DNA of 64,000 nt from Pseudaquabacterium terrae. GTDB lineage: Bacteria > Pseudomonadota > Gammaproteobacteria > Burkholderiales > Burkholderiaceae_C. The stretch's first letter is position 1, and each line of letters opens with the position of its first letter. A model generated the notes under the pieces. It saw nothing but the letters and a program-made list of their open reading frames with translations, had not been told where the DNA came from and did no database searches. The DNA is taken from positions 372,001 through 436,000 of the forward strand of contig NZ_JABRWJ010000001.1 of the NCBI RefSeq assembly GCF_013266755.1, in the 5' to 3' direction. Positions 19,218-33,181 of this stretch are shown here, in pieces. The position numbers were made by a program, and so were the translations under genes.

Positions 19218-19396
19218 CGGCGTTCCTGGTCGTCGAATCCGGTCGCTACCAGTGTGCCCGCTGCGACACATCGCTGTCCTCGGATGCCAACTCGGTCACA
19301 CCCGTGCAAGACCGCGCCCCTAGAAGCGCGGCGACGCGTCCGCGGCGCCTTCCTAGACTTGATCGGTATCGCCAGGCTGCCAGGGAGGACAACGGC

Positions 19397-20305
19397 ATGT
19401 CGCGATTGCGCATCACCTTGTTCGGCGGCGTCTCGCTCGCCGTGCCCGGCCCGCGGGTCCTGCCGCTGGCCGCTTCGTGCCGGCCGCTGCTCGGCTATCT
19501 GCTGACCCAGCGCCGGCGTGCCGTGCCGCGGCTGGAAGTGGCCGAGTTGCTGTGGCCGGGCCAGGACAGCGACAGCGCGCGGCGCTGCCTGTCGACCGCG
19601 CTGTGGCGGCTGAAGCAGTGCATCGGCAGCGGCCCGCCGCTGCTCGCCGCCTGCGGCTGCGATGACCTGGCATTGAACGACGGTGCACGGGTGTGGGTCG
19701 ACGCATGGGCCTTCGAGCAGCGCCTCGCGCCGCTGCTGCGGCGCGATCCCGACACACTGGCGCCGGCCGAGCTCGCGCGGCTCGAGCGCGGCCTGCGCCT
19801 GTACTGCGGTCCCTACCTTGCCGGCATCGATGCCGAGTGGGCACTGATCGAACGCCAGCGCCTGCGCAGCCTGTATTGCGATGCGCTGTACCAGCTGACG
19901 CTGGCCTGCGTGGCCCGCGCTCAATGGGCGCGTGCCCTCGCCTGGGGCCGGCTGCTCGCGCGCGAGGAGCCGCTGCGCGAGGACGTGCAGCGCACGCTGA
20001 TGCTGGCCCTCGCGCACACCGGCAACCGCGCCGGCGCGCTGGCGCAGTACCGCGAGCACGCGCAGCGCCTGGCGCGCGAGCTCGGCGTCGAGCCGATGGC
20101 CGAGACGCGCGCGCTGTACCAGCGGCTCGCGCAGGCCGGCGATGTCGCGACCGCGCCTGCGACGGCGCCGGCCCCGGCGCTGCCGCCAGGCGCGGCGGAC
20201 AGCGCGCTCGGCGCCGCGCGGCGACGCATCGGCCGCGTACAACGCGTGCTAGCGGCCTCGCAGCTGCAGCTCGAAGCCGCGCTGCAATCGCTGCCGCCCC
20301 CCTAG
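19397..20305 (+). CDS. SARP-type transcriptional activator (OmpR-like DNA-binding domain plus BTAD)
   Basis: A 302-residue regulator. Residues about 1-95 form the OmpR-like winged helix (LRITLFGGVSL, the LLGYLLTQRRRAVPR helix, ELLWPGQDSDSARRCLSTAL, WRLKQCIG). Residues about 100-245 form the bacterial transcriptional activation domain with TPR-like helices (WALIERQRLRSLYCDALYQL and the final LARELGVEPMAETRALYQRL). This is the architecture of SARP/AfsR-DnrI activators, which are abundant in Actinobacteria and scarcer in Proteobacteria. The start at 19397 has a GGGAGGA Shine-Dalgarno; an earlier in-frame start lacks homology. Four SARP-like repeats lie immediately downstream, ahead of the next operon, making it the likely pathway-specific activator. 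Confidence 0.88.
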   Translation: MSRLRITLFGGVSLAVPGPRVLPLAASCRPLLGYLLTQRRRAVPRLEVAELLWPGQDSDSARRCLSTALWRLKQCIGSGPPLLAACGCDDLALNDGARVWVDAWAFEQRLAPLLRRDPDTLAPAELARLERGLRLYCGPYLAGIDAEWALIERQRLRSLYCDALYQLTLACVARAQWARALAWGRLLAREEPLREDVQRTLMLALAHTGNRAGALAQYREHAQRLARELGVEPMAETRALYQRLAQAGDVATAPATAPAPALPPGAADSALGAARRRIGRVQRVLAASQLQLEAALQSLPPP

Positions 20306-20669: not shown

Positions 20670-21728
20670 ATGTATATGACCGCCACCGCCTATCCCACGC
20701 TGCGCGCCGGCCTGGCGCCCGAATGCATCGAGTGGAGCGACGCGCAGATCGAAGCGCTCGTCGCCGAGCTCTACGGGCCCGCCGTCGGCGCCGAGGATGT
20801 CGAATCATTCTGGAGCGACGCCGGCAAAGGCTTCCTGAAGGTCGGCAAGAGCGTCGGCCGCTTCGCCCAGCAGGCGGCGCCGGGCATCGCGCAGGGTGCG
20901 CTGACCGGCGCCAGCGTCGGCGGACCGTTCGGCGCGATCGCCGGTGCGGTCGCCGGTGGCGCGGGCGGCATCCTGTCGCGGTCGAAGAACAAGACGCTGC
21001 GCGGCATCGGCGGCGCGATCGGCGGCGCCACGCAGCTGGCCTCGCAGTTCCTGCCGGCCGGCCGGCTCGGCGGCGCGGTCGGCCAGCTCGCCGGCGTCGC
21101 GCTCGGCGCGGCGCGCGGCGGCGCGCGTGGCGGGCTCGGTGGCCTGGCGCAGGGCGCGCTCGGTGCCCTCGGTGGACTCGGCGGGCAGCGTGGCACGCTC
21201 GGTGCGCTGGCACGCGCCGGTGGTTCGCTGCTCGGCAGCGGTGCCGGCCGCGGTGGCGCCGCGAATGCCTTGATGGGCCTGCTGTCGCGGCCCGAGACGA
21301 CGCGCGCGTTGACCGCTGCCGCGCTCGGCCCGGCCGGGCGCTCGCAGGTGTCGGTCGGCGGCCACGCGGTGCCGGTGCAGTCGATCCTCTCGGCGCTCGG
21401 CGGCCTGGCCGGTCGTGCGGCCGGCGAGGCCGAGGCCGAGCACGCCGGCATGCCCGCGTACTTCTACGGCGCCGACGGCGAGCTGGCGATCGACCCGGCC
21501 GATGCCGAGCAGCGCACCGATGCGCTGCTCGAACTGTTCGCCGCCACGCCGGTGCCGTGGCCGATCGAGCATCACCGGCACACCGACGAGACGGACGAGT
21601 CGGACGAGCACGACGAGGCCGTCGACGAGAGCGTCTACAGCGCCGAAGACCTGCGCCGCGACGCCTGGCTGCTGGCCAACGAGGCGCAGTGGCAGGCCGA
21701 ATGGGCCGAGGAGTATCGCCATGCTTGA
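20670..21728 (+). CDS. Gly/Ala-rich unknown protein with glycine-zipper segments
   Basis: A 352-residue protein with a GGAGAG Shine-Dalgarno. The N-terminal 60 residues are ordinary globular sequence (CIEWSDAQIEALVAELYG). Residues about 70-240 are dominated by Gly, Ala, Leu and Arg with GxxxG-like spacing (GAIAGAVAGGAGGILSR; LGALGGLGGQRGTLGALAR), as in glycine-zipper or membrane-inserting proteins. Residues about 250-350 are acidic (HTDETDESDEHDEAVDES) and end in Trp-rich helical sequence. There is no Sec or Tat signal. Function is unknown: surface assembly, membrane insertion or a scaffold are all possible. Its stop overlaps the next gene by eight bases, showing translational coupling. Confidence 0.75.
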   Translation: MYMTATAYPTLRAGLAPECIEWSDAQIEALVAELYGPAVGAEDVESFWSDAGKGFLKVGKSVGRFAQQAAPGIAQGALTGASVGGPFGAIAGAVAGGAGGILSRSKNKTLRGIGGAIGGATQLASQFLPAGRLGGAVGQLAGVALGAARGGARGGLGGLAQGALGALGGLGGQRGTLGALARAGGSLLGSGAGRGGAANALMGLLSRPETTRALTAAALGPAGRSQVSVGGHAVPVQSILSALGGLAGRAAGEAEAEHAGMPAYFYGADGELAIDPADAEQRTDALLELFAATPVPWPIEHHRHTDETDESDEHDEAVDESVYSAEDLRRDAWLLANEAQWQAEWAEEYRHA

Positions 21729-22188
21729 AGAACCGAATGCGATCGCGCTGCCCGACACCGGCGCGATGCTCGCCAACTTCGTGCAGCAGAACCCGCAGCT
21801 CGCCTGGCTGCCGCAGATGCTGGCAGCGCAACGCCAGGCGGCCGCCGCGGCCGCGGCCATCGCCGAGCCGCAGGCCGACGAATGCGCGCTGCTGCAGCAG
21901 GCGCTGGCGCAGGCCGAGACGCGCATCGAGCGGCTCGTGCGCAGCCACCGGCGCCTCACCGGCGAGCTGACGGCGGCGCATGAGCTGTTGTCCGATCTGG
22001 CCGCGGCCTTCGGTGCCTGCGGCCTGTGCTGGGGCGAAGACCCCGGCTGCCCGAGCTGCCGCGGCCGCGGCAAGCCGGGCCGCTTCGCCGCCGATCCCCA
22101 GCTGGCGCAGCGCTTCGGCGTCATCGCCGAAGCGCCTGTCGCCGCGGCGCGGCTGGCGGTGTCCCTTGGCCCCACCGACAGGAGATGA
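21721..22188 (+). CDS. Unknown protein with coiled coil and Cys cluster
   Basis: A 155-residue protein whose ATG overlaps the preceding stop by eight bases. Residues about 35-100 are Ala/Gln/Glu-rich and look like an amphipathic coiled coil (LLQQALAQAETRIERLVRS). A short metal-site-like cluster follows, CGLCWGED then CPSCRGRGKPG. The second half matches the CxxCxGxG repeat of DnaJ-type zinc fingers, so one zinc ion could be bound by the four Cys. No signal peptide is present. Its place between two unknown operon proteins suggests a chaperone- or adaptor-like part of the same assembly, which is inference. Confidence 0.75.
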   Translation: MLEEPNAIALPDTGAMLANFVQQNPQLAWLPQMLAAQRQAAAAAAAIAEPQADECALLQQALAQAETRIERLVRSHRRLTGELTAAHELLSDLAAAFGACGLCWGEDPGCPSCRGRGKPGRFAADPQLAQRFGVIAEAPVAAARLAVSLGPTDRR

Positions 22189-22191
22189 GCC

Positions 22192-22800
22192 ATGCTCACT
22201 TACGCCCCGTATGAAACCGACGAGCTGATCGAGAACGACGAGTACTTCGAATACGACGAGAGCGACGAGTCCGACGAAGCCAAGCGCCGCCGCGGCGCGC
22301 GCGGGCCGGTGCGCACCGCCAAGCGCGGCGGCAACGTGCCGCCGCGGCCGACGCCCGGCTTCGCCACCCGCGCCGAGCTGACTGCCACCGCCAACCGCCT
22401 CGACGCCAAGATCGCCACCAACTCGGGCGCGATCAAGGCCGTCGAAGGCCGCGTCAATACCTTGTCGACCGAGCAGACCAAGCTGCGCACCGACGTCAAC
22501 AAGCTGCAGGGCAGCATCAACGACGTGCGCAACATGGCGATGCTGATGCCGCTGCTGACCTCGCAGACCACGCGCACCGTGACCACCGCCGTCGGCGGCA
22601 CGATCAACGCCGGCGACAAGGTCGTCGTCGACACCGGCGACAGCTTCAGCAAGGTCCTGCCGCTGCTGATGTTCAGCGGCGGCTTCGGCGGCTCGTCGTC
22701 CGGCGGCAGCGGCGGCAACAGCGGCGGCGGCATGTTCGGCGGCGACTCCGGCGGGATCATGATGGTCGCGCTGATGATGGCCATGCAGGACAAGAAGTAA
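22192..22800 (+). CDS. Acidic, coiled-coil, Gly/Ser-rich unknown protein
   Basis: A 202-residue protein starting four bases after the previous stop, with AGGAG seven bases before the ATG. It has three parts: an acidic start rich in Tyr, Asp and Glu (DEYFEYDESDESDEAKRRR), a heptad-patterned helix (about 58-115: NRLDAKIATNSGAIKAVEGR, then LSTEQTKLRTDVNKLQG), and a Gly/Ser-rich region with hydrophobic Met/Leu patches ending in MMAMQDKK. The layout recalls fibrous trimeric proteins, but no family is recognised. The acidic motif echoes the tail of the protein at 20670-21728, which suggests a shared binding role. Confidence 0.75.
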   Translation: MLTYAPYETDELIENDEYFEYDESDESDEAKRRRGARGPVRTAKRGGNVPPRPTPGFATRAELTATANRLDAKIATNSGAIKAVEGRVNTLSTEQTKLRTDVNKLQGSINDVRNMAMLMPLLTSQTTRTVTTAVGGTINAGDKVVVDTGDSFSKVLPLLMFSGGFGGSSSGGSGGNSGGGMFGGDSGGIMMVALMMAMQDKK

Positions 22801-22812
22801 GCGGAGGCGGCC

Positions 22813-23190
22813 ATGGCATCGCCCCTCGTTCCCTTCGTGCTCGGCCGCGCGCTCGCCGGCAGCATCGGCGTCGTCGATGACGCGTCGAAGAACCGCGCCG
22901 GCCTGATGATGATGATGTTCGGCCTCGGCCTGCCCGGCATCGTGGTGACGCGCGAGATCGCGCGCCGTGACGTGCCGCCGCCGGTGCCCGTGCGCACCGA
23001 TGACGGCACCGGCACCGCCACCGACGGTGGCACCGGCACCACGACCGGCGGCACCGCCGGCGGCACCGGCACCACCACCACCGGCGGCACCACCATCGGC
23101 GTCACGACGACCACCGGCGAGATCACCACCACCGGTGGTGGCAGCTCGACCGGCAGCGCCACCGGCACGCCCGCCAAGGCGCGTGCCTGA
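22813..23190 (+). CDS. Thr/Gly-rich low-complexity unknown protein
   Basis: A 125-residue protein with a GGAGG Shine-Dalgarno, starting 12 bases after the preceding stop. The first 45 residues contain a hydrophobic Met-rich segment (AGLMMMMFGLGLPGIVV) that could insert in a membrane. The remaining 75 residues are almost pure Thr, Gly and Ser repeats (GTGTATDGGTGTTTGG and similar). Such tails are typical of flexible or glycosylated extracellular linkers in other bacteria. No enzyme domain is present. Position in the operon links it to the protease-tyrosinase protein. Confidence 0.7.
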   Translation: MASPLVPFVLGRALAGSIGVVDDASKNRAGLMMMMFGLGLPGIVVTREIARRDVPPPVPVRTDDGTGTATDGGTGTTTGGTAGGTGTTTTGGTTIGVTTTTGEITTTGGGSSTGSATGTPAKARA

Positions 23191-23223: not shown

Positions 23224-26200
23224 ATGGACCCGGCATTGCAGGAGCTGCTCGCCAGCGGCGAGGCGAGCGACGAAGTCGCCGTCGTGCTGCGGTTGCGCGA
23301 TGCGGAGCCGCCGCCGGCGGTGCTGCGCATCGTCGCGCGGCTCGGCGCCATCGCCACCGCGCGCATCGAGCGCGCCGCCGTCTGGCAGGTCTATGGCCAT
23401 CCGGCCATCGCGAGTCTCAAGGCGCCGCGCTGGCTGATCAGCGAATACGGCGCGCTGATCGATCGCGACGACGCCGAGTTCACCGAGGTCCTCGACAGCG
23501 ACCGGCGCCGGCCCGAGGACCTGCCGCAGACCGGCCGCGGCGTGCTGATGGGATTCGTCGACTGGGGCTGCGACTTCGCGCATCCCGACTTCCTCGACGA
23601 GCATGGCGATACGCGGCTGTGCGCGCTGTGGGACCAGCGTGCCGCCGGCAACGACGGCAACCGCTACGGCTACGGCCGCATCCTGCGCCGCGATGCGCTG
23701 AACGCCGCGCTGCGGGCGAAGGATCCGTACGCCGCCGTCGGCTACCACCCGGGCCGCGCCGACACCGGCGCCGGTGCGCATGGCACGCACGTGATGGGCA
23801 TCGCCGCGGGCAATGGCCGCGCCGGGGGGCCGTCAGGCCTGGCGCCCGATGCCGAGCTGGCCTTCGTGCACCTGGGCGCACCCGGCTGGGAGAAGAGCGG
23901 CCCGCTCGGCGATTCGAGCCACCTGCTCGAAGCGATCCATTTCCTCGTCGACGAGGCCGGCGACCGGCCGCTGGTGCTGAACCTGAGCATCGGCCGCCAC
24001 GCCGGCCCGCACGACGGCTCGACGCCGATCGAGCTGGCGATCGACTGGCTGCTGCGCGCGCGCCCCGGCACCTGCATCGTGCAGAGCACCGGCAACTACT
24101 TCGAGCGCGCGGTGCACCAGGCCGGCCAGCTGCGCGCCGGCGAGACCGACACGATCAGCTTCGACGTGCACAGCGGCGACACGACACCGAACGAGCTCGA
24201 GCTCTGGTACCCGGGGCACGACCGCTTCGTCGCCGCGCTGATCGACCCCAGCGGCCATGAAGTCGCGCGCACCGAGCTCGGCAGCCGCGCGCCGGTGCTG
24301 ATTGCGGAGCGCTGCGTCGGCACGCTCTACCACCGTGCACGCGATCCGAACAACGGCGACCACCACATCCACCTGTTCCAGTACCCCAGCGCACCGGCCG
24401 GCCGCTGGCAGCTGCGGCTGACCGGCGAGGACGTGTCCGATGGGCGTTATCACGCCTGGCTCGAGCGCGACCCCGGCTGCAAGCACTGCCAGGCGCTGTT
24501 CACGCCCGGCCAGGCCGATGCGCGCTCGACCACCGGCAGCATCTGCAACGGCCTGCAGGCGCTGGTCGTCGGCGCGCTCGACGGCCATGCCGACGAGCCG
24601 CTGCTGGCGCCGTTCTCCAGCAGCGGGCCGACGCGCGACGGCCGCGTGCGCCCGCTGCTGCTGGCGCCCGGCGTGCGCGTGCTGTCGGCGCGCTCGACAC
24701 CGCTGATCGGCCGCCGCGCGGCGCGCCTGGTGCGCATGAGCGGCACCAGCATGGCCGCGCCGCATGTCAGCGGCACCGTCGCGCTGATGTACGAGGCGGC
24801 CGGGCGCCTGCCGATCGCCCGGCTGCGCAGCGCGCTGTTCGAAACGCTCGAACCCTTCGACACCGGCGACCCGGCCGACCACCACCGCCTCGGCTTCGGC
24901 CGCCTCGACAGCGCCGCCGCGGTGCGGCGCGCGGCCGCGCTCGGCGGCGGGGCCGTGCGGGCGACACCCCCTCAGGAGATGACGATGAACCCCGATTGCT
25001 GCGGCGAAGAGCGGTGCAAGGACTGCCAGCACTGCGCCACCGAATCCTGCGCCACCTGCCCGTGCTGCCACGGTGCGGGGCACGAGTGCGGCAAGACCGA
25101 GACCGCGATCGAGGCCGAAGCCGAGCCGGTGATCCGGGTGGTGCCGTCGCCGCTGGCCGAAGACGCGGGGCCGGAGCTGATCGCCGAGGCCGAGCAGCCG
25201 CAGATCCAGGTCGTGCCGTCGCCGCTGACGTCCGACGTGAGCGTCGAAGTGATCGAGTCCGACGAAGCGGCAGAGATCGCGGATGCTGCCGAGGCCTTCT
25301 ACGTCGCCGAGCCGCCGCCCCATCCGGTCGACATCGCCGAAGCCCTGCTCGACGAGGGCATCACCGAGGTCGACCAGTTCGTCGCGCGCCAGCTCGGCGG
25401 CGACAGCCCGACGGCGCGCACCGCGCAGCTCTTCGACGAGCTGAGCGGCCGCCTCGGGCCCGAGCGCCAGGCGCAGCGCGCGGCGCAGTTCGAGCTGGTC
25501 GTGCCGCCGGGCGCGGCGATCGATGCGCCGCTGCAGCCGGGCGACCTGTTGCTGCGGCGCGGCGAGGGCGGCCGCGCGCATGCCGCGGTGCTGACGCAGG
25601 GCCAGCTGACCAGCCCGCCCGAGGCACCGGCGCAGGGGCTGCAGCTCGAAGGGCCCTGGCCGGGGCTGTACGCACCGGTGATCGAGCCGGGCGCGCGCCC
25701 GCACCACGCGCGGCAACGCTTCGCACGCCGCATCGCCGGCGCCGACGGCACGCTGCGGCCCGACAGCCTGCTGCTGCGGCCGCGCCGCGGCGGCGCGCCG
25801 CTCGGCGAGCACATCGAGGACACCGAGGCGGCGCCGGATCCGAACGTGCGCTGGCTGCAGACCGCGTTGAATGCGATCGGCAACGCCGGGCTGGTCGTCG
25901 ACGGCATCGCCGGCACGGCCACGCGCGAAGCGGTCAAGCGCTACCAGGCCTCGCGCGGGCTCGCCGCCGACGGCCTGGTCGGACCGCAGACGCTGCAGGC
26001 CCTGCACGCTGACTATGACGGTTATCGCGGCTACGGCACGCCACCGCCGCCGCCCTATGCGCCGCCACCGCCACCGCCGTACACACCGCCGCCGCCACCG
26101 TATGCAGCGCCGCCGCCGCCCTACGTGCCACCGCGCCCGCCCTACACGCCACCACCGCGGCCACCGTACACGCCGCCGCCCCCGCCCTATGCGGCGCCGC

Positions 26201-28119
26201 CGCCGCCGTACGCACCGCCACCGCCGTACGTGCCGCCACGGCCGCCGTACGCCGCGCCGCCGCCACCGTACACACCGCCGCCACCGCCGTATGCCGCACC
26301 TCCGCCGCCGTACACGGCACCGCCCGGCTACGGCCAGTGCGAGGTCTTCAACAACTACGGCTACGACAGCAGCACGCCGACCTATGCACATCGCGCGACG
26401 ATCGAGACGCTGGCGCAGCAGCTGATTGCGCGCAATGTCACGGCACTGCGCATCACCGGCTACAGCAGCCCCGAGGGTGCCGCCACCTACAACCAGGCGC
26501 TCGGCCAGCAGCGCGCGCAGAACCTGGCCACCGCGCTGCGCGCAGCGATCGAGCGCCGCCGTCCCGGCTACGCCGCGCGCATCCGCTACGACATCCGCTC
26601 CGAAGGTGAAGCCCAGCAGGTCGCCGGCGGCGGCCCGGCGAACCGCCGCGTGATCGTCTGCTACGACACCCCGTACGGCCCCGGCCCCGGCCCGGGACCG
26701 ACCCCGCCACCGCCGCCCCCGCCACCACCGCCCGCACGCGTCCTGACGCGCCACGACGTCAGCACGCCGCAGGGCCGCGCGATGCTCGACCGCTACGCCG
26801 AGGCGGTGCGCCGCATGCGGGCACTGCCGGCGCGCGACCCCGCGAGCTGGACCTTCCAGTGGTACATCCACGCGGTGCGTGACGACCGCACTGAAGCGCA
26901 GGAGTTGCAGGCCGCGTTCGGCGGCGCCGATTCGCCGGTGCGCCGGCTCGCCGCGCGCGTGTGGAACACCTGCCAGGCCCACCAGACCACCGACCGGCCG
27001 ACGCACGAGTTGTACTTCCTGCCCTGGCACCGGATGTACGTGCACTACTTCGAGCGCATCTGCCGCCGCGTGCTCGGCGACGAGAACTTCACGCTGCCGT
27101 ACTGGGACTACGTCAACGGCTCGTCGGTGCTGCCGGCGCCGTTCCGCGACCGCGGCAGCCCGCTCTTCCATGCCGACCGCACGCCGGCGGTCAATGCCGG
27201 TGGCGCGATCGACACGCCGCAGACCCGGCTGCAATACGCCGACGCGCTGGCCAACCGCAACTTCGCGCGCCAGGGCGGCGACTTCGGCTTCAGCCTGACG
27301 CTCGAAAGCCGGCCGCACAACGTCGTGCACGGCAACATCGGCACCGGCCGCGGCATGGGCAGCGTCGAGTGGGCTGCCGCCGATCCGATCTTCTGGCTGC
27401 ACCACTGCAACATCGACCGCGTGTGGGCGAGCTGGAATGCGCTCGGCCGCCGCAACCCCGGCGACGCCGGCTGGCTCGACGCCAGCTTCACGTTCGCCGA
27501 CGAAGCGGGGCGCGAGGTCAACCCGCGCAACCGCGACTTCACCGACATCACCCGCCTCGGCCTGCGCTACGACCGGCTCGAAGCTGCCCCGCGCGGCGCC
27601 AGCGCCGAGTCCGATGACTTCGCGGCCGACCTGTCACCGCCTGCCGGGAGCACGACGATGAGCACCACGCGCCACCGCGCCGCGCCGAGCGGCGGCATCC
27701 CGCTCGGCGGCCAGGCGATCCAGGTCACGCTGCCGGCGCAGGGCCCGCGCGACGAGCACGAAGCCGCCGACGAAGCCGCCGGCGACAAGCGCAGCTTCCT
27801 GGTGCTGAACAACTTCCGCGCCGATGCGCCGCCGGGGGTCACGTACCACGTCTACCTCGGCCTGCCGCCGGGCACCAGCGGCCGCGAGGCGGCGCGCTAC
27901 TACGTCGGCCCGCTGAGCTTCTTCGATGCGGTGCCGCGCCGCGGCCATGCCGCGCACTTCAGCGGCAAGTCGACCAGCTTCGACGTCACCGCGCTGGTGC
28001 GGCGGCTGCGCAGCGAGGGCCGCTGGCAGGGCACGCCGGCGGTGACGATCGCACCGGCCGGCGCGCCGGCGTCCAGTGCCCGGCCATTGATCGGCGACAT
28101 CAGCATCGTCGAGCAATGA
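23224..28119 (+). CDS. 1631-residue subtilase / peptidoglycan-binding / OmpA-like / tyrosinase fusion
   Basis: One uninterrupted frame with these parts in order. A propeptide-like start (1-80). A subtilisin-family S8 protease with Asp113 (FVDWGCDF), His186 (AHGTHVMG) and Ser509 (SGTSMAAPHVSG). A Cys-rich segment (from Met588). An NlpC/P60-like region (about 690-860, PGDLLLRRGEGGRAHAAV). A PG_binding_1 domain (872-930). Pro-rich PPPPY-type repeats (about 940-1037). An OmpA-like domain (1038-1150, ITGYSSPEGAATYNQ). A second Pro run. A tyrosinase (about 1172-1456) with copper-A His in THELYFLPWHRMYVHYFE (1261, 1269) and copper-B His1365, His1369 and His1393. A C-terminal beta domain (1479-1631). 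No Sec or Tat signal is visible. Every catalytic set looks complete. In-frame Shine-Dalgarno/ATG cassettes at 24974 and 27646 suggest it arose by joining genes. Confidence 0.88.
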   Translation: MDPALQELLASGEASDEVAVVLRLRDAEPPPAVLRIVARLGAIATARIERAAVWQVYGHPAIASLKAPRWLISEYGALIDRDDAEFTEVLDSDRRRPEDLPQTGRGVLMGFVDWGCDFAHPDFLDEHGDTRLCALWDQRAAGNDGNRYGYGRILRRDALNAALRAKDPYAAVGYHPGRADTGAGAHGTHVMGIAAGNGRAGGPSGLAPDAELAFVHLGAPGWEKSGPLGDSSHLLEAIHFLVDEAGDRPLVLNLSIGRHAGPHDGSTPIELAIDWLLRARPGTCIVQSTGNYFERAVHQAGQLRAGETDTISFDVHSGDTTPNELELWYPGHDRFVAALIDPSGHEVARTELGSRAPVLIAERCVGTLYHRARDPNNGDHHIHLFQYPSAPAGRWQLRLTGEDVSDGRYHAWLERDPGCKHCQALFTPGQADARSTTGSICNGLQALVVGALDGHADEPLLAPFSSSGPTRDGRVRPLLLAPGVRVLSARSTPLIGRRAARLVRMSGTSMAAPHVSGTVALMYEAAGRLPIARLRSALFETLEPFDTGDPADHHRLGFGRLDSAAAVRRAAALGGGAVRATPPQEMTMNPDCCGEERCKDCQHCATESCATCPCCHGAGHECGKTETAIEAEAEPVIRVVPSPLAEDAGPELIAEAEQPQIQVVPSPLTSDVSVEVIESDEAAEIADAAEAFYVAEPPPHPVDIAEALLDEGITEVDQFVARQLGGDSPTARTAQLFDELSGRLGPERQAQRAAQFELVVPPGAAIDAPLQPGDLLLRRGEGGRAHAAVLTQGQLTSPPEAPAQGLQLEGPWPGLYAPVIEPGARPHHARQRFARRIAGADGTLRPDSLLLRPRRGGAPLGEHIEDTEAAPDPNVRWLQTALNAIGNAGLVVDGIAGTATREAVKRYQASRGLAADGLVGPQTLQALHADYDGYRGYGTPPPPPYAPPPPPPYTPPPPPYAAPPPPYVPPRPPYTPPPRPPYTPPPPPYAAPPPPYAPPPPYVPPRPPYAAPPPPYTPPPPPYAAPPPPYTAPPGYGQCEVFNNYGYDSSTPTYAHRATIETLAQQLIARNVTALRITGYSSPEGAATYNQALGQQRAQNLATALRAAIERRRPGYAARIRYDIRSEGEAQQVAGGGPANRRVIVCYDTPYGPGPGPGPTPPPPPPPPPPARVLTRHDVSTPQGRAMLDRYAEAVRRMRALPARDPASWTFQWYIHAVRDDRTEAQELQAAFGGADSPVRRLAARVWNTCQAHQTTDRPTHELYFLPWHRMYVHYFERICRRVLGDENFTLPYWDYVNGSSVLPAPFRDRGSPLFHADRTPAVNAGGAIDTPQTRLQYADALANRNFARQGGDFGFSLTLESRPHNVVHGNIGTGRGMGSVEWAAADPIFWLHHCNIDRVWASWNALGRRNPGDAGWLDASFTFADEAGREVNPRNRDFTDITRLGLRYDRLEAAPRGASAESDDFAADLSPPAGSTTMSTTRHRAAPSGGIPLGGQAIQVTLPAQGPRDEHEAADEAAGDKRSFLVLNNFRADAPPGVTYHVYLGLPPGTSGREAARYYVGPLSFFDAVPRRGHAAHFSGKSTSFDVTALVRRLRSEGRWQGTPAVTIAPAGAPASSARPLIGDISIVEQ
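24974..24987 (+). promoter_or_regulatory. Internal in-frame ribosome-binding site and ATG (start of Cys-rich/tyrosinase part)
   Basis: AGGAG at 24974-24978 is followed by six bases and the in-frame ATG at 24985 (Met588, MNPDCCGEERC). Another ATG lies at 24979. This is a textbook initiation site located precisely at the border between the subtilase and the Cys-rich segment. It could make a separate 1044-residue protein lacking the protease. The site is seen; its use is inferred. Confidence 0.5.
27646..27660 (+). promoter_or_regulatory. Internal in-frame ribosome-binding site and ATG (start of C-terminal domain)
   Basis: GGGAG at 27646-27650, a seven-base spacer and the in-frame ATG at 27658 (Met1479, MSTTRHRAAPSGG) coincide with the border between the tyrosinase and the 153-residue C-terminal beta domain. 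It may allow independent synthesis of that domain, or may be a relic of gene joining. Confidence 0.45.
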
Positions 28120-31346: not shown

Positions 31347-31361
31347 TAGAGTGGCACCATG
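31347..31361 (+). promoter_or_regulatory. -10-like TAGAGT six bases before the ada ATG, suggesting a leaderless transcript
   Basis: TAGAGT at 31347-31352 is separated from the ATG at 31359 by six bases. Transcription normally starts about seven bases after a -10 box, which would be the A of the ATG. No Shine-Dalgarno precedes this ATG. The -35 region is poor. The identical layout occurs before the AtuA-type gene at 37480. Confidence 0.45.
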
Positions 31362-32489
31362 AACCTGCACCACCCCGCTCCCATGCCTGTCCACCCCGCG
31401 CGTCCGCCGCTGAACCCGCGCGCCGCCGAGCTCGCCGCGGTGGTCGAACGCGACCCGCGCTGGGCCGCGGTGCGCAGCCGCGATGCCGCCGCCGACGGCC
31501 GGTTCGTCTACTCGGTGCGCACGACCGGCGTCTATTGCCGGCCGAGCTGCCCGGCGCGCGCGGCGCGGCCGGAAAACATCGCCTTCCACGCCGATCCGTC
31601 GGCGGCCGAAGCCGCCGGCTTTCGCCCCTGCAAGCGCTGCCGGCCCGATGGCGTGAGCATCGCCGCGCAGCAGGCCGCGATCATCGCCGCGCTATGCCGT
31701 CACATCGAAGCGAGCGAACAAGCGCCGACCCTCGACGCATTGGCCGCGCGCGCGGGCTGGAGCCCCTATCACCTGCACCGCGTCTTCAAGGCGATCACCG
31801 GGTTGACGCCGCGCGCCTACGCCGCCGCGCAGCGTGCCGGCCGCATGCGCCAGCAGTTGCAGTCCGGCGCCCGCGTGACCGACGCGCTGTACGACGCCGG
31901 TTATGGCTCCGGCGGCCACTTCTATGCCGAGGCCGACCGGCAGCTCGGCATGACACCGGGCCGCTACCGTGCCGGCGGCGCCGACAGCGTGATCCGCTTC
32001 GCGCTCGGCGAGTGTTCGCTCGGCGCGATCCTCGTCGCGCAGAGTGAACGCGGCATCTGCGCGATCACGCTCGGCGACGATCCCGACACGCTGCTGCGCG
32101 AGCTGCAGGACCACTTTCCGCGCGCCCGGCTGATCGGCGGCGACCGCGCTTTCGAGACGCTGGTCGCACGCGTCGTCGGCTTCGTCGAGGCGCCGCGGCT
32201 GGGCCTGGACCTGCCGCTCGATGTGCGCGGCACGGCCTTCCAGCAGCGCGTGTGGCAGGCGCTGCGCGACATCCCGGCCGGCCGCACCGCGAGTTATGCC
32301 GAGATCGCCGAGCGCATCGGCGCGCCGAAGGCGGTGCGCGCGGTCGCGCAGGCCTGTGCGGCGAATGCGCTGGCAGTGGCCATTCCCTGCCACCGCGTGG
32401 TGCGCCGCGACGGCGCCTTGTCGGGTTACCGCTGGGGCGTCGAGCGCAAGCAGGCCTTGCTGGAACGCGAAGGCAGCGCGGCGGCATGA
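31359..32489 (+). CDS. ada: Ada: bifunctional DNA methylphosphotriester/O6-methylguanine methyltransferase and regulator
   Basis: A 376-residue protein with the complete Ada layout. The N-terminal zinc and phosphotriester repair domain has Cys60, Cys64, Cys91 and Cys94 (VYCRPSCPAR, PCKRCRPDG). The AraC-type helix-turn-helix follows (LDALAARAGWSPYHLHRVFK; YDAGYGSGGHFYAEADRQLG). The C-terminal methyltransferase carries active-site Cys344 in AIPCHRVVRRDGALSGYRWG. Methylation of the N-terminal Cys converts family members into activators of the adaptive response. The next gene, a 2-oxoglutarate oxygenase, overlaps by ATGA, as alkB follows ada in enterobacteria. An earlier start is unlikely given the TAGAGT box six bases upstream. 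Confidence 0.95.
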   Translation: MNLHHPAPMPVHPARPPLNPRAAELAAVVERDPRWAAVRSRDAAADGRFVYSVRTTGVYCRPSCPARAARPENIAFHADPSAAEAAGFRPCKRCRPDGVSIAAQQAAIIAALCRHIEASEQAPTLDALAARAGWSPYHLHRVFKAITGLTPRAYAAAQRAGRMRQQLQSGARVTDALYDAGYGSGGHFYAEADRQLGMTPGRYRAGGADSVIRFALGECSLGAILVAQSERGICAITLGDDPDTLLRELQDHFPRARLIGGDRAFETLVARVVGFVEAPRLGLDLPLDVRGTAFQQRVWQALRDIPAGRTASYAEIAERIGAPKAVRAVAQACAANALAVAIPCHRVVRRDGALSGYRWGVERKQALLEREGSAAA

Positions 32490-33181
32490 ATCGGCTCGAT
32501 GGTGTGGACTGGGCAGCGGTCGAAACCGCACTCGATGCCGACGGCGCGGCGCTGCTGCCCGGCCTGCTGTCGTCGCAGGAGTGCCGGGCGCTCGCCGCGT
32601 CGTACGACACGCCGGTCTTCCGCAGTCGCGTCGTGATGGCGCGCCACGGTTTCGGCCGTGGCGAGTACCAGTACTTCGCCTATCCGCTGCCGCCGCTGAT
32701 CCAGCGCCTGCGCGAAGCCGCGTATCCGCGCCTGGTGCCGATCGCCAACCGCTGGAACGAAGCACTGGGCAATCCGATTCGCTATCCCGCAAAGCACGCG
32801 GCCTTTCTCGAGCGCTGCCACGCCGCCGGGCAGGACCGGCCGACGGCGCTGCTGCTGCAGTACGGCGCGGGCGACTACAACTGCCTGCACCAGGACCTCT
32901 ACGGCGAGCACGTGTTCCCGCTGCAGGTCGTGCTGCTGCTGTCGCAGCCGGGGTGCGACTTCGAAGGCGGCGAATTCGTGCTGACCGAACAGCGTCCGCG
33001 CATGCAGTCGCGGCCGCTGGTGCTGCCGCTGCAGCAGGGGGACGCCGCGGTGATCGCCGTGCAGCACCGCCCGGTGCAGGGGGCACGCGGCGCCTACCGC
33101 GTGAACCTGCGCCACGGCGTCAGCCGCGTGCGCTCCGGGCGTCGGCATGTGGCGGGCATCGTGTTCCACGATGCGCGCTGA
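32486..33181 (+). CDS. 2-oxoglutarate/Fe(II)-dependent oxygenase coupled to ada
   Basis: A 231-residue protein. The iron-binding facial triad is visible as His135 and Asp137 (LHQDLYGEHV) and His194 (AVIAVQHRPVQ), with the 2-oxoglutarate-binding Arg205 in YRVNLRHGVSR. The remainder fits a double-stranded beta-helix oxygenase. It is not a close textbook AlkB by motif spacing, but its ATGA overlap with ada strongly suggests alkylation repair or a linked modification. Family-level assignment is firm; the substrate is inference. Two hairpins follow the stop codon. Confidence 0.85.
   Translation: MNRLDGVDWAAVETALDADGAALLPGLLSSQECRALAASYDTPVFRSRVVMARHGFGRGEYQYFAYPLPPLIQRLREAAYPRLVPIANRWNEALGNPIRYPAKHAAFLERCHAAGQDRPTALLLQYGAGDYNCLHQDLYGEHVFPLQVVLLLSQPGCDFEGGEFVLTEQRPRMQSRPLVLPLQQGDAAVIAVQHRPVQGARGAYRVNLRHGVSRVRSGRRHVAGIVFHDAR

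Follow-up and report, generated by a model that had tools for sequence, protein, structure and literature searches.

Csp germination proteases are spore proteins of Clostridia in which the subtilase domain carries an inserted segment, a jellyroll domain (CspB; PDB 4i0w, 9sj6). According to the available part of one account, the prodomain of CspB stays bound and inhibits the enzyme until a signal arrives, and activation of the wall and cortex hydrolase SleC requires CspB (PMC3567191). Polymorphic toxins of the PVC/eCIS type, as far as the available portion of their description goes, join a constant N-terminal part to exchanged C-terminal domains and include a subtilisin-type processing protease as well as peptidoglycan-binding and OmpA domains (PMC3482391). 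Sequence features reminiscent of both occur in a gene cassette in the 64,000-nucleotide stretch of Pseudaquabacterium terrae DNA analyzed here (hereafter, the window), where four small genes, gp1 to gp4, precede a gene for a very large protein.

The large protein is encoded by one uninterrupted open reading frame (ORF) of 1631 aa with no internal stops (23224-28119, + strand), with the domain order subtilase, Cys-rich segment, unnamed conserved domain, PG_binding_1, Tyr/Pro repeats, OmpA-like domain, tyrosinase, PPO1_DWL, and DUF7868 (Table 1). GC content at the third codon position is 0.79-0.97 along its length, and position 3 has the highest GC in 16 of 17 blocks of 100 codons (the last block has 31 codons, with positions 1 and 2 equal); the exception is codons 901-1000, where the Pro repeats begin. 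Nothing in the frame points to a frameshift or a chance ORF. The single polypeptide proposed by the original prediction, which was made from the sequence without database searches, is confirmed, and its observation was essentially right, with one domain misnamed. Pfam placed Peptidase_S8 (5e-29), PG_binding_1 (3e-16), and Tyrosinase (3e-29) above the cut-off, as had been expected for these three domains, and also matched two families left unnamed before, PPO1_DWL (8.8e-6) and DUF7868 (2.8e-9). The Cys-rich segment and the wall-binding modules are likewise present as described. The OmpA-like assignment stands for the closest relative, which scores 40.0 bits, over the Pfam cut-off of 27.2; the window protein itself scores 21.8 bits and stays under it.

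Table 1. Features of the cassette and its surroundings in the window (all on the + strand)
Feature	Coordinates	Strand	Basis
BTAD (SARP-like) regulator	19304..20305	+	Pfam BTAD 6.7e-24
gp1, Gly-zipper protein, 352 aa	20670..21728	+	HMM matches upstream of subtilase in 34/41 genome loci
gp2, coiled coil and GAC..CWGED..C..C.G.G.PG motif; overlaps gp1 stop	21721..22188	+	32/41 loci
gp3, acidic leader, basic patch, coiled coil, short Leu/Met-rich C-terminal runs (by eye)	22192..22800	+	28/41 loci
gp4, hydrophobic N-terminal module, then Thr/Gly-rich tail	22813..23190	+	Frame position, read by eye
Csp-like S8 subtilase (Asp113, His186, Ser509) with an inserted segment and, N-terminally, a prodomain-like region	23224..24930	+	Pfam, alignments
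Cys-rich segment, 10 Cys (residues 592-622)	24997..25089	+	Similar segment in Bradyrhizobium MAG
Unnamed conserved domain ("adaptor domain"; residues 761-862), PGDLL.RRGEGG..HAAV	25504..25809	+	34 domain matches in 29 regions
PG_binding_1	25837..26004	+	Pfam, 59.8 bits
Tyr/Pro tandem repeat tract (residues 926-1044)	25999..26355	+	21-base period, 13.5 copies at 26039-26324
OmpA-like domain	26365..26538	+	Below Pfam cut-off in window, above in relative
Tyrosinase domain, six conserved candidate copper His	26719..27441	+	Pfam, alignment
PPO1_DWL and DUF7868 C-terminal domains	27463..28116	+	Pfam

The original prediction of a catalytically complete subtilase, a processing-type protease within the same chain, was borne out by the alignment of four cassette subtilases, in which all three residues of the S8 triad are invariant. 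The nearest relatives among sequences of solved structures are the Csp germination proteases (profile E-value of 1.6e-47), and at the sequence level the alignment spans their inserted segment. Whereas the Csp proteases belong to clostridial spores, the cassette protease occurs in other phyla and is often fused to cargo. CspB is needed to activate a wall hydrolase, and the cassette protease is in several loci fused or adjacent to wall enzymes. By analogy, we infer that a held-back protease placed in or next to such enzymes may follow the logic of CspB. A [DE][PS].L motif lies no more than 20 residues from the chosen start in each of the 38 gp1-bearing subtilases, and over their first 40 residues the 15-residue hydropathy mean nowhere exceeds 1.8; the starts were placed at the match, and longer leaders are possible in some. 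At a related Rhizobium subtilase locus, a small gene 3' of the subtilase (L009:8869-9126) resembles, by eye, a lone N-terminal prodomain region.

Residues 761-862 had been taken for an NlpC-like domain. This assignment did not hold: none of 24 members of the domain matches any Pfam family at E<=0.1, just one Gly and one Asp are invariant in the domain alignment, whereas NlpC/P60 domains conserve a catalytic Cys-His, and the top match among solved structures has an E-value of 0.02 over 18 residues. The search against sequences of solved structures gave no convincing relative for either this adaptor domain or gp1. The adaptor domain was matched 34 times in 29 of 53 regions, the window included, with 26 matches in the subtilase chain, seven in separate genes, and one in L018, indicating that the domain accompanies payload chains whether or not they are fused to the protease. 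The L018 match is the second half of an interrupted frame in a MAG (L018:6498-9500), where an in-frame stop breaks the adaptor domain through decay, error, or a genuine end.

Among the plasmid matches of the large protein, the subtilases from Cupriavidus, Streptomyces, and Gemmatirosa have small genes 5' that are like those in the window, and alignments of these upstream genes with those of the window defined three families, gp1, gp2, and gp3. We built HMMs on the window and plasmid sequences and iterated them on loci found by a subtilase-profile scan of the species-genome collection, in which 76 stretches yielded 41 loci, a lower bound because the scan was restricted by two peptide patterns. 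All three families were found together in 27 of the 41 loci (individual counts in Table 1). Of the seven loci lacking gp1, four (L021, L032, L038, and L046) lie on contigs that start 0.4 to 2.8 kb ahead of the subtilase, L032 having gp2 and gp3; in the other three (L053, L054, and L056) the match starts only near the catalytic part, and they look like other subtilases. The profiles also detected all three families at three plasmid loci (L001, L002, and L013), although a single-sequence tblastn search with gp1 had given no match in the plasmid collection. Six further plasmid S8 loci (L003, L004, L009, L010, L011, and L012) matched none of the three HMMs, which indicates that this subtilase type is wider than the cassette. 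The small proteins belong with the large protein, as the original prediction had implied, and their genes recur in fixed order before the same type of subtilase.

Judged by record titles, seven phyla are represented among the 27 full loci: Pseudomonadota, Bacteroidota, Cyanobacteriota, Actinomycetota, Chloroflexota, Planctomycetota, and Acidobacteriota. The Gemmatirosa plasmid locus (L013) extends the range to Gemmatimonadota, and in a 'Deltaproteobacteria' MAG (L052) gp1 occurs on its own. Some subtilase-profile match at E<=0.001 was present in 30 of 60 genomes of the window's family, its own included, with a strong match in that genome only (3e-298; next best 5.7e-26). The gp1 profile matched six of 398 genomes of the window's phylum at E<=1e-8, again strongly in the window's own genome only (1.1e-39); the five other matches (4e-10 to 7e-9) look like Gly-zipper cross-matches. 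In the phylum of L020, two of 291 genomes matched, one being L020's own. The occurrence of a rare cassette in many phyla, sometimes on plasmids, suggests that it moved by horizontal transfer. A phage origin was considered and rejected: only one S8 relative was found among 59 pattern matches in viral contigs, and the seven phage records matching the large protein do so over the subtilase part (six) or PG_binding_1 (one). PHROG matches of the large protein are mainly to generic protease and endolysin families.

None of gp1 to gp4 of the window reaches a Pfam or NCBIfam cut-off, and their PHROG matches are weak at most (best 0.0019). The Cys motif of gp2 is reminiscent of a DnaJ zinc finger. In 20 of 22 regions inspected, gp3 and the subtilase are separated by a frame of at least 60 aa, with a hydrophobic start by eye in 18; in the relatives of gp4, also read by eye, the hydrophobic module is followed by a coiled coil, low complexity, or repeats. 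Homologs of the BTAD gene lie near the cassette in eight of 53 scanned regions, the window counted, and this SARP-like gene is a possible regulator of the cassette. Upstream of two cassettes where BTAD was not found, sigma-54-type activators were recognized by eye (L033:6072-7118 and L036:3530-4627), and the type of regulator seems to differ among cassettes. A promoter scan found none, and terminator-like sites numbered three against 1.7 expected. Elsewhere in the window, 31359-33181 holds an Ada-like gene followed by a frame that may encode an Fe/2OG oxygenase; the matching region of a Paracoccus plasmid is annotated as ada and proline hydroxylase.

We then compared what follows the protease by scanning with Pfam the regions after the subtilase in 29 of 51 S8 chains. 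Above the cut-off, these C-terminal parts contain PG_binding_1 (10) and OmpA (4), together with the enzyme families LCAT (1), M15 (2), PLD (1), Amidase_2 (2), M23 with Phage_lysozyme2 (2, one with DUF4056), and PAD with amine oxidase (1). Thirteen of the 29 match no family at E<=0.01 and two (L013 and L027) have below-cut-off matches only, so that the term "enzyme payload" is an extrapolation for 15 of them. Ten downstream genes gave PLD in three, wall hydrolases in three, OmpA above the cut-off in one and below it in another, and no family in two. Across bacteria, the payload kinds comprise amidases, M15, M23, lysozyme, phospholipase D, lipase, arginine deiminase, and amine oxidase, with tyrosinase in the window. 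On the Cupriavidus plasmid, L001:6-2770 (-) contains another gp1-like frame together with a protein of 721 aa that has an adaptor domain and PG_binding_1, probably a second payload. The original prediction saw a phenol-oxidizing machine; a tyrosinase domain is indeed predicted, but phenol oxidation is not the essence of the system, because in other bacteria different enzymes accompany this subtilase type and these upstream genes.

Judged from these sequence comparisons, small genes in fixed order precede a Csp-like subtilase, and what follows it, often with an adaptor domain and PG_binding_1 or OmpA, is exchanged between lineages. A conserved part with exchanged C-terminal enzymes is the arrangement of polymorphic toxins, and the processing protease and the peptidoglycan-binding and OmpA domains are common to both. 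Unlike in those toxins, neither RHS, nor PVC-metallopeptidase, nor an immunity gene was recognized in the cassette domain scans, and several cassette payloads act on wall or lipid. We consider it fairly probable that the window protein unites protease and cargo within a polymorphic five-gene cassette for exoenzymes or effectors, and that it is matured by its own protease and carries a tyrosinase together with a built-in Tyr substrate. The subtilase would fold with its prodomain as an inhibited enzyme and, upon assembly or a signal, would cut itself and free the payload, comparable to the CspB/SleC pair. Wall-binding domains would then hold the payload on peptidoglycan, either the producer's own or that of a target. 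In the lineage of the window the payload would be a copper tyrosinase with the Tyr-rich Pro tract of the same chain as substrate, and the released molecules may cross-link to one another and to nearby protein via quinones.

As far as a simple hydropathy scan can tell, the large protein lacks an N-terminal signal, as the original prediction stated, and no strong membrane segment or leader is seen in it or in gp1 to gp4 of the window (the highest 19-residue mean in the cassette is 1.51, in gp4). The gp1 to gp4 proteins could form a carrier or export assembly. In its boldest form, which we put forward tentatively and regard as doubtful, they would build a hitherto undescribed carrier or secretion apparatus, present in at least seven phyla, that exports protease-gated enzymes; its payload here would be a self-cross-linking tyrosinase with its own Tyr substrate, a bacterial equivalent of mussel-type glue that serves as a weapon or an anchor.

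Alternatively, the polypeptide could be cargo of an extracellular contractile injection system (eCIS), loaded without a signal peptide and released by its subtilase as in PVC-type toxins, an explanation that we consider unlikely. The eCIS cap family PF14065 is present in 16 of 35 cassette genomes, 34 of which have gp1 (the exception, L038, lies on a short contig). It was found in 6/10 carriers versus 53/246 other genomes in Bacteroidota (p = 0.012) and in 2/9 versus 14/298 in Pseudomonadota (p = 0.074), which gives a pooled odds ratio of 5.6 (p = 0.001) stratified over the two phyla, with genomes assigned to phyla by record title, controls matched by phylum only, habitat and genome size aside, and the other 16 genomes outside the comparison. 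The centre genomes (those of the window and L024) were left out of these controls; with them, the counts are 15/299 in the window's phylum and 54/247 in the phylum of L024. PF14065 was absent from 14 named control genomes. The sheath family PF04984 occurs in 16 of the 35 genomes, 12 over the cut-off, and in the genome of the window sheath and cap genes are located on a different contig. PVC-delivered toxins are listed with subtilisin-type proteases and C-terminal OmpA domains in the available part of PMC3482391, and 68 predicted eCIS toxins carry a peptidoglycan-binding domain according to that of PMC11297309. However, PF14065 was not matched in 19 of the 35 genomes, some of which are incomplete MAGs, and the cassette HMMs gave no significant match in 19.9 kb around the eCIS of the window's genome (best E-value of 0.47). 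A general dependence on eCIS is not supported, and we regard eCIS as at most one route. The main texts of two eCIS toxin papers (PMC8213781 and PMC11297309) mention no tyrosinase, subtilisin, or OmpA. The eCIS-like locus of the window's genome, with sheath and Pvc16 cap, lies at 130500-150400 of its contig (G000:C5, L095), and the frame at 4180-7284 of L095 looks by eye like a TIR-type protein.

Closer to the original proposal of a wall-anchored machine, the cassette might instead encode an own-envelope device, a coat or wall-modifying complex that sclerotizes or remodels the surface of the producer; we doubt this reading about as much as the eCIS one. It fits the PG_binding_1 and OmpA domains and the Tyr-rich tract adjoining the tyrosinase, and the gp4 repeats of some relatives look PASTA-like by eye. 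Yet many of the payloads recognized elsewhere are lytic (amidases, M15, M23, muramidase, and PLD), for which a permanent coat is ill-suited. Wall-lytic payloads in other bacteria fit attack or remodeling as well as they fit anchoring to the own wall.

The original claim that all copper ligands are present agrees with an alignment of four tyrosinases, in which the six candidate copper His (1216, 1253, and 1269; 1365, 1369, and 1393) are conserved, the assignment of each being by analogy; His1394 is likewise conserved. The copper His are in common with bacterial tyrosinases or polyphenol oxidases that have a C-terminal domain, such as chain A of PDB 8b74, and the match to 8b74 extends into the C-terminal part. 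They are also in common with L003 and L014, yet there the tyrosinase is a separate gene and gp1 to gp3 were not found in the locus. For this reason the tyrosinase loci of Bradyrhizobium septentrionale and Sinorhizobium were rejected as cassettes. The window and the genome of L016, a Bradyrhizobium MAG, are the only places where a tyrosinase was found with the cassette; in a search of 35 genomes, four others had weak or partial matches elsewhere.

This MAG is also the closest relative found, and its domain order is the same, interrupted by a contig end only. Its subtilase is 63.5% identical over residues 1-573 and extends to the end of a 9580-base contig. Its tyrosinase, 56% identical to that of the window, lies on a separate contig within a single frame of 1145 aa that is open to the contig edge and contains the Cys-rich segment, adaptor domain, PG_binding_1, Tyr/Pro repeats, OmpA, Tyrosinase, PPO1_DWL, and DUF7868. 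In this nearest homolog, no stop codon divides the stretch from the Cys-rich segment through DUF7868 into separate genes. Continuity between the two contigs is inferred. The similarity is co-linear, with 39.5% identity over residues 584-956 and 50.6% over 1013-1629. Because the relative keeps the same order, the fusion is unlikely to be a sequencing artifact. A fortuitous gene fusion or an error of assembly, without any underlying system, would suit an architecture found in two genomes only, the second a MAG broken at a contig end, but is hardly credible given the co-linear similarity of all three segments and the conservation of the cassette across phyla.

The two tyrosinase members share a Tyr-rich Pro linker. 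Residues 926-1044 of the window protein contain 61 Pro and 17 Tyr in 119 residues, confirming the Tyr/Pro repeats noted before, and the Pro linker of the Bradyrhizobium MAG has 27 Tyr in 233 residues. In contrast, the Pro-rich stretches of seven other cassette subtilases, two of them near-identical, contain 0, 0, 0, 2, 0, 0, and 1 Tyr. Counting against the substrate reading, the window protein has a further Pro-rich stretch (1137-1188) with just two Tyr. The repeat unit is 39 bases in the MAG versus 21 in the window. Repeats that turned over while Tyr was kept suggest that Tyr matters, with two related members as a small sample; because they are related (about 40-64% identity by segment), the enrichment does not count as two independent events. 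The sequences suggest that the Tyr-rich linker may serve as a built-in cross-linking substrate.

Our search of the main texts of open-access literature recognized no paper describing the cassette or the domain combination, and a gene cassette with swapped enzymes of this kind is apparently undescribed. Its novelty lies in the cassette behind the fusion more than in the fusion itself: a compact set of four small genes ahead of a Csp-like protease, with enzymes swapped across distant phyla. Should gp1 to gp4 build a carrier, this would be a new means of transporting large enzymes that lack signal peptides. In the tyrosinase version, the pairing of an enzyme with its putative cross-linking substrate in a single chain can be tested directly.
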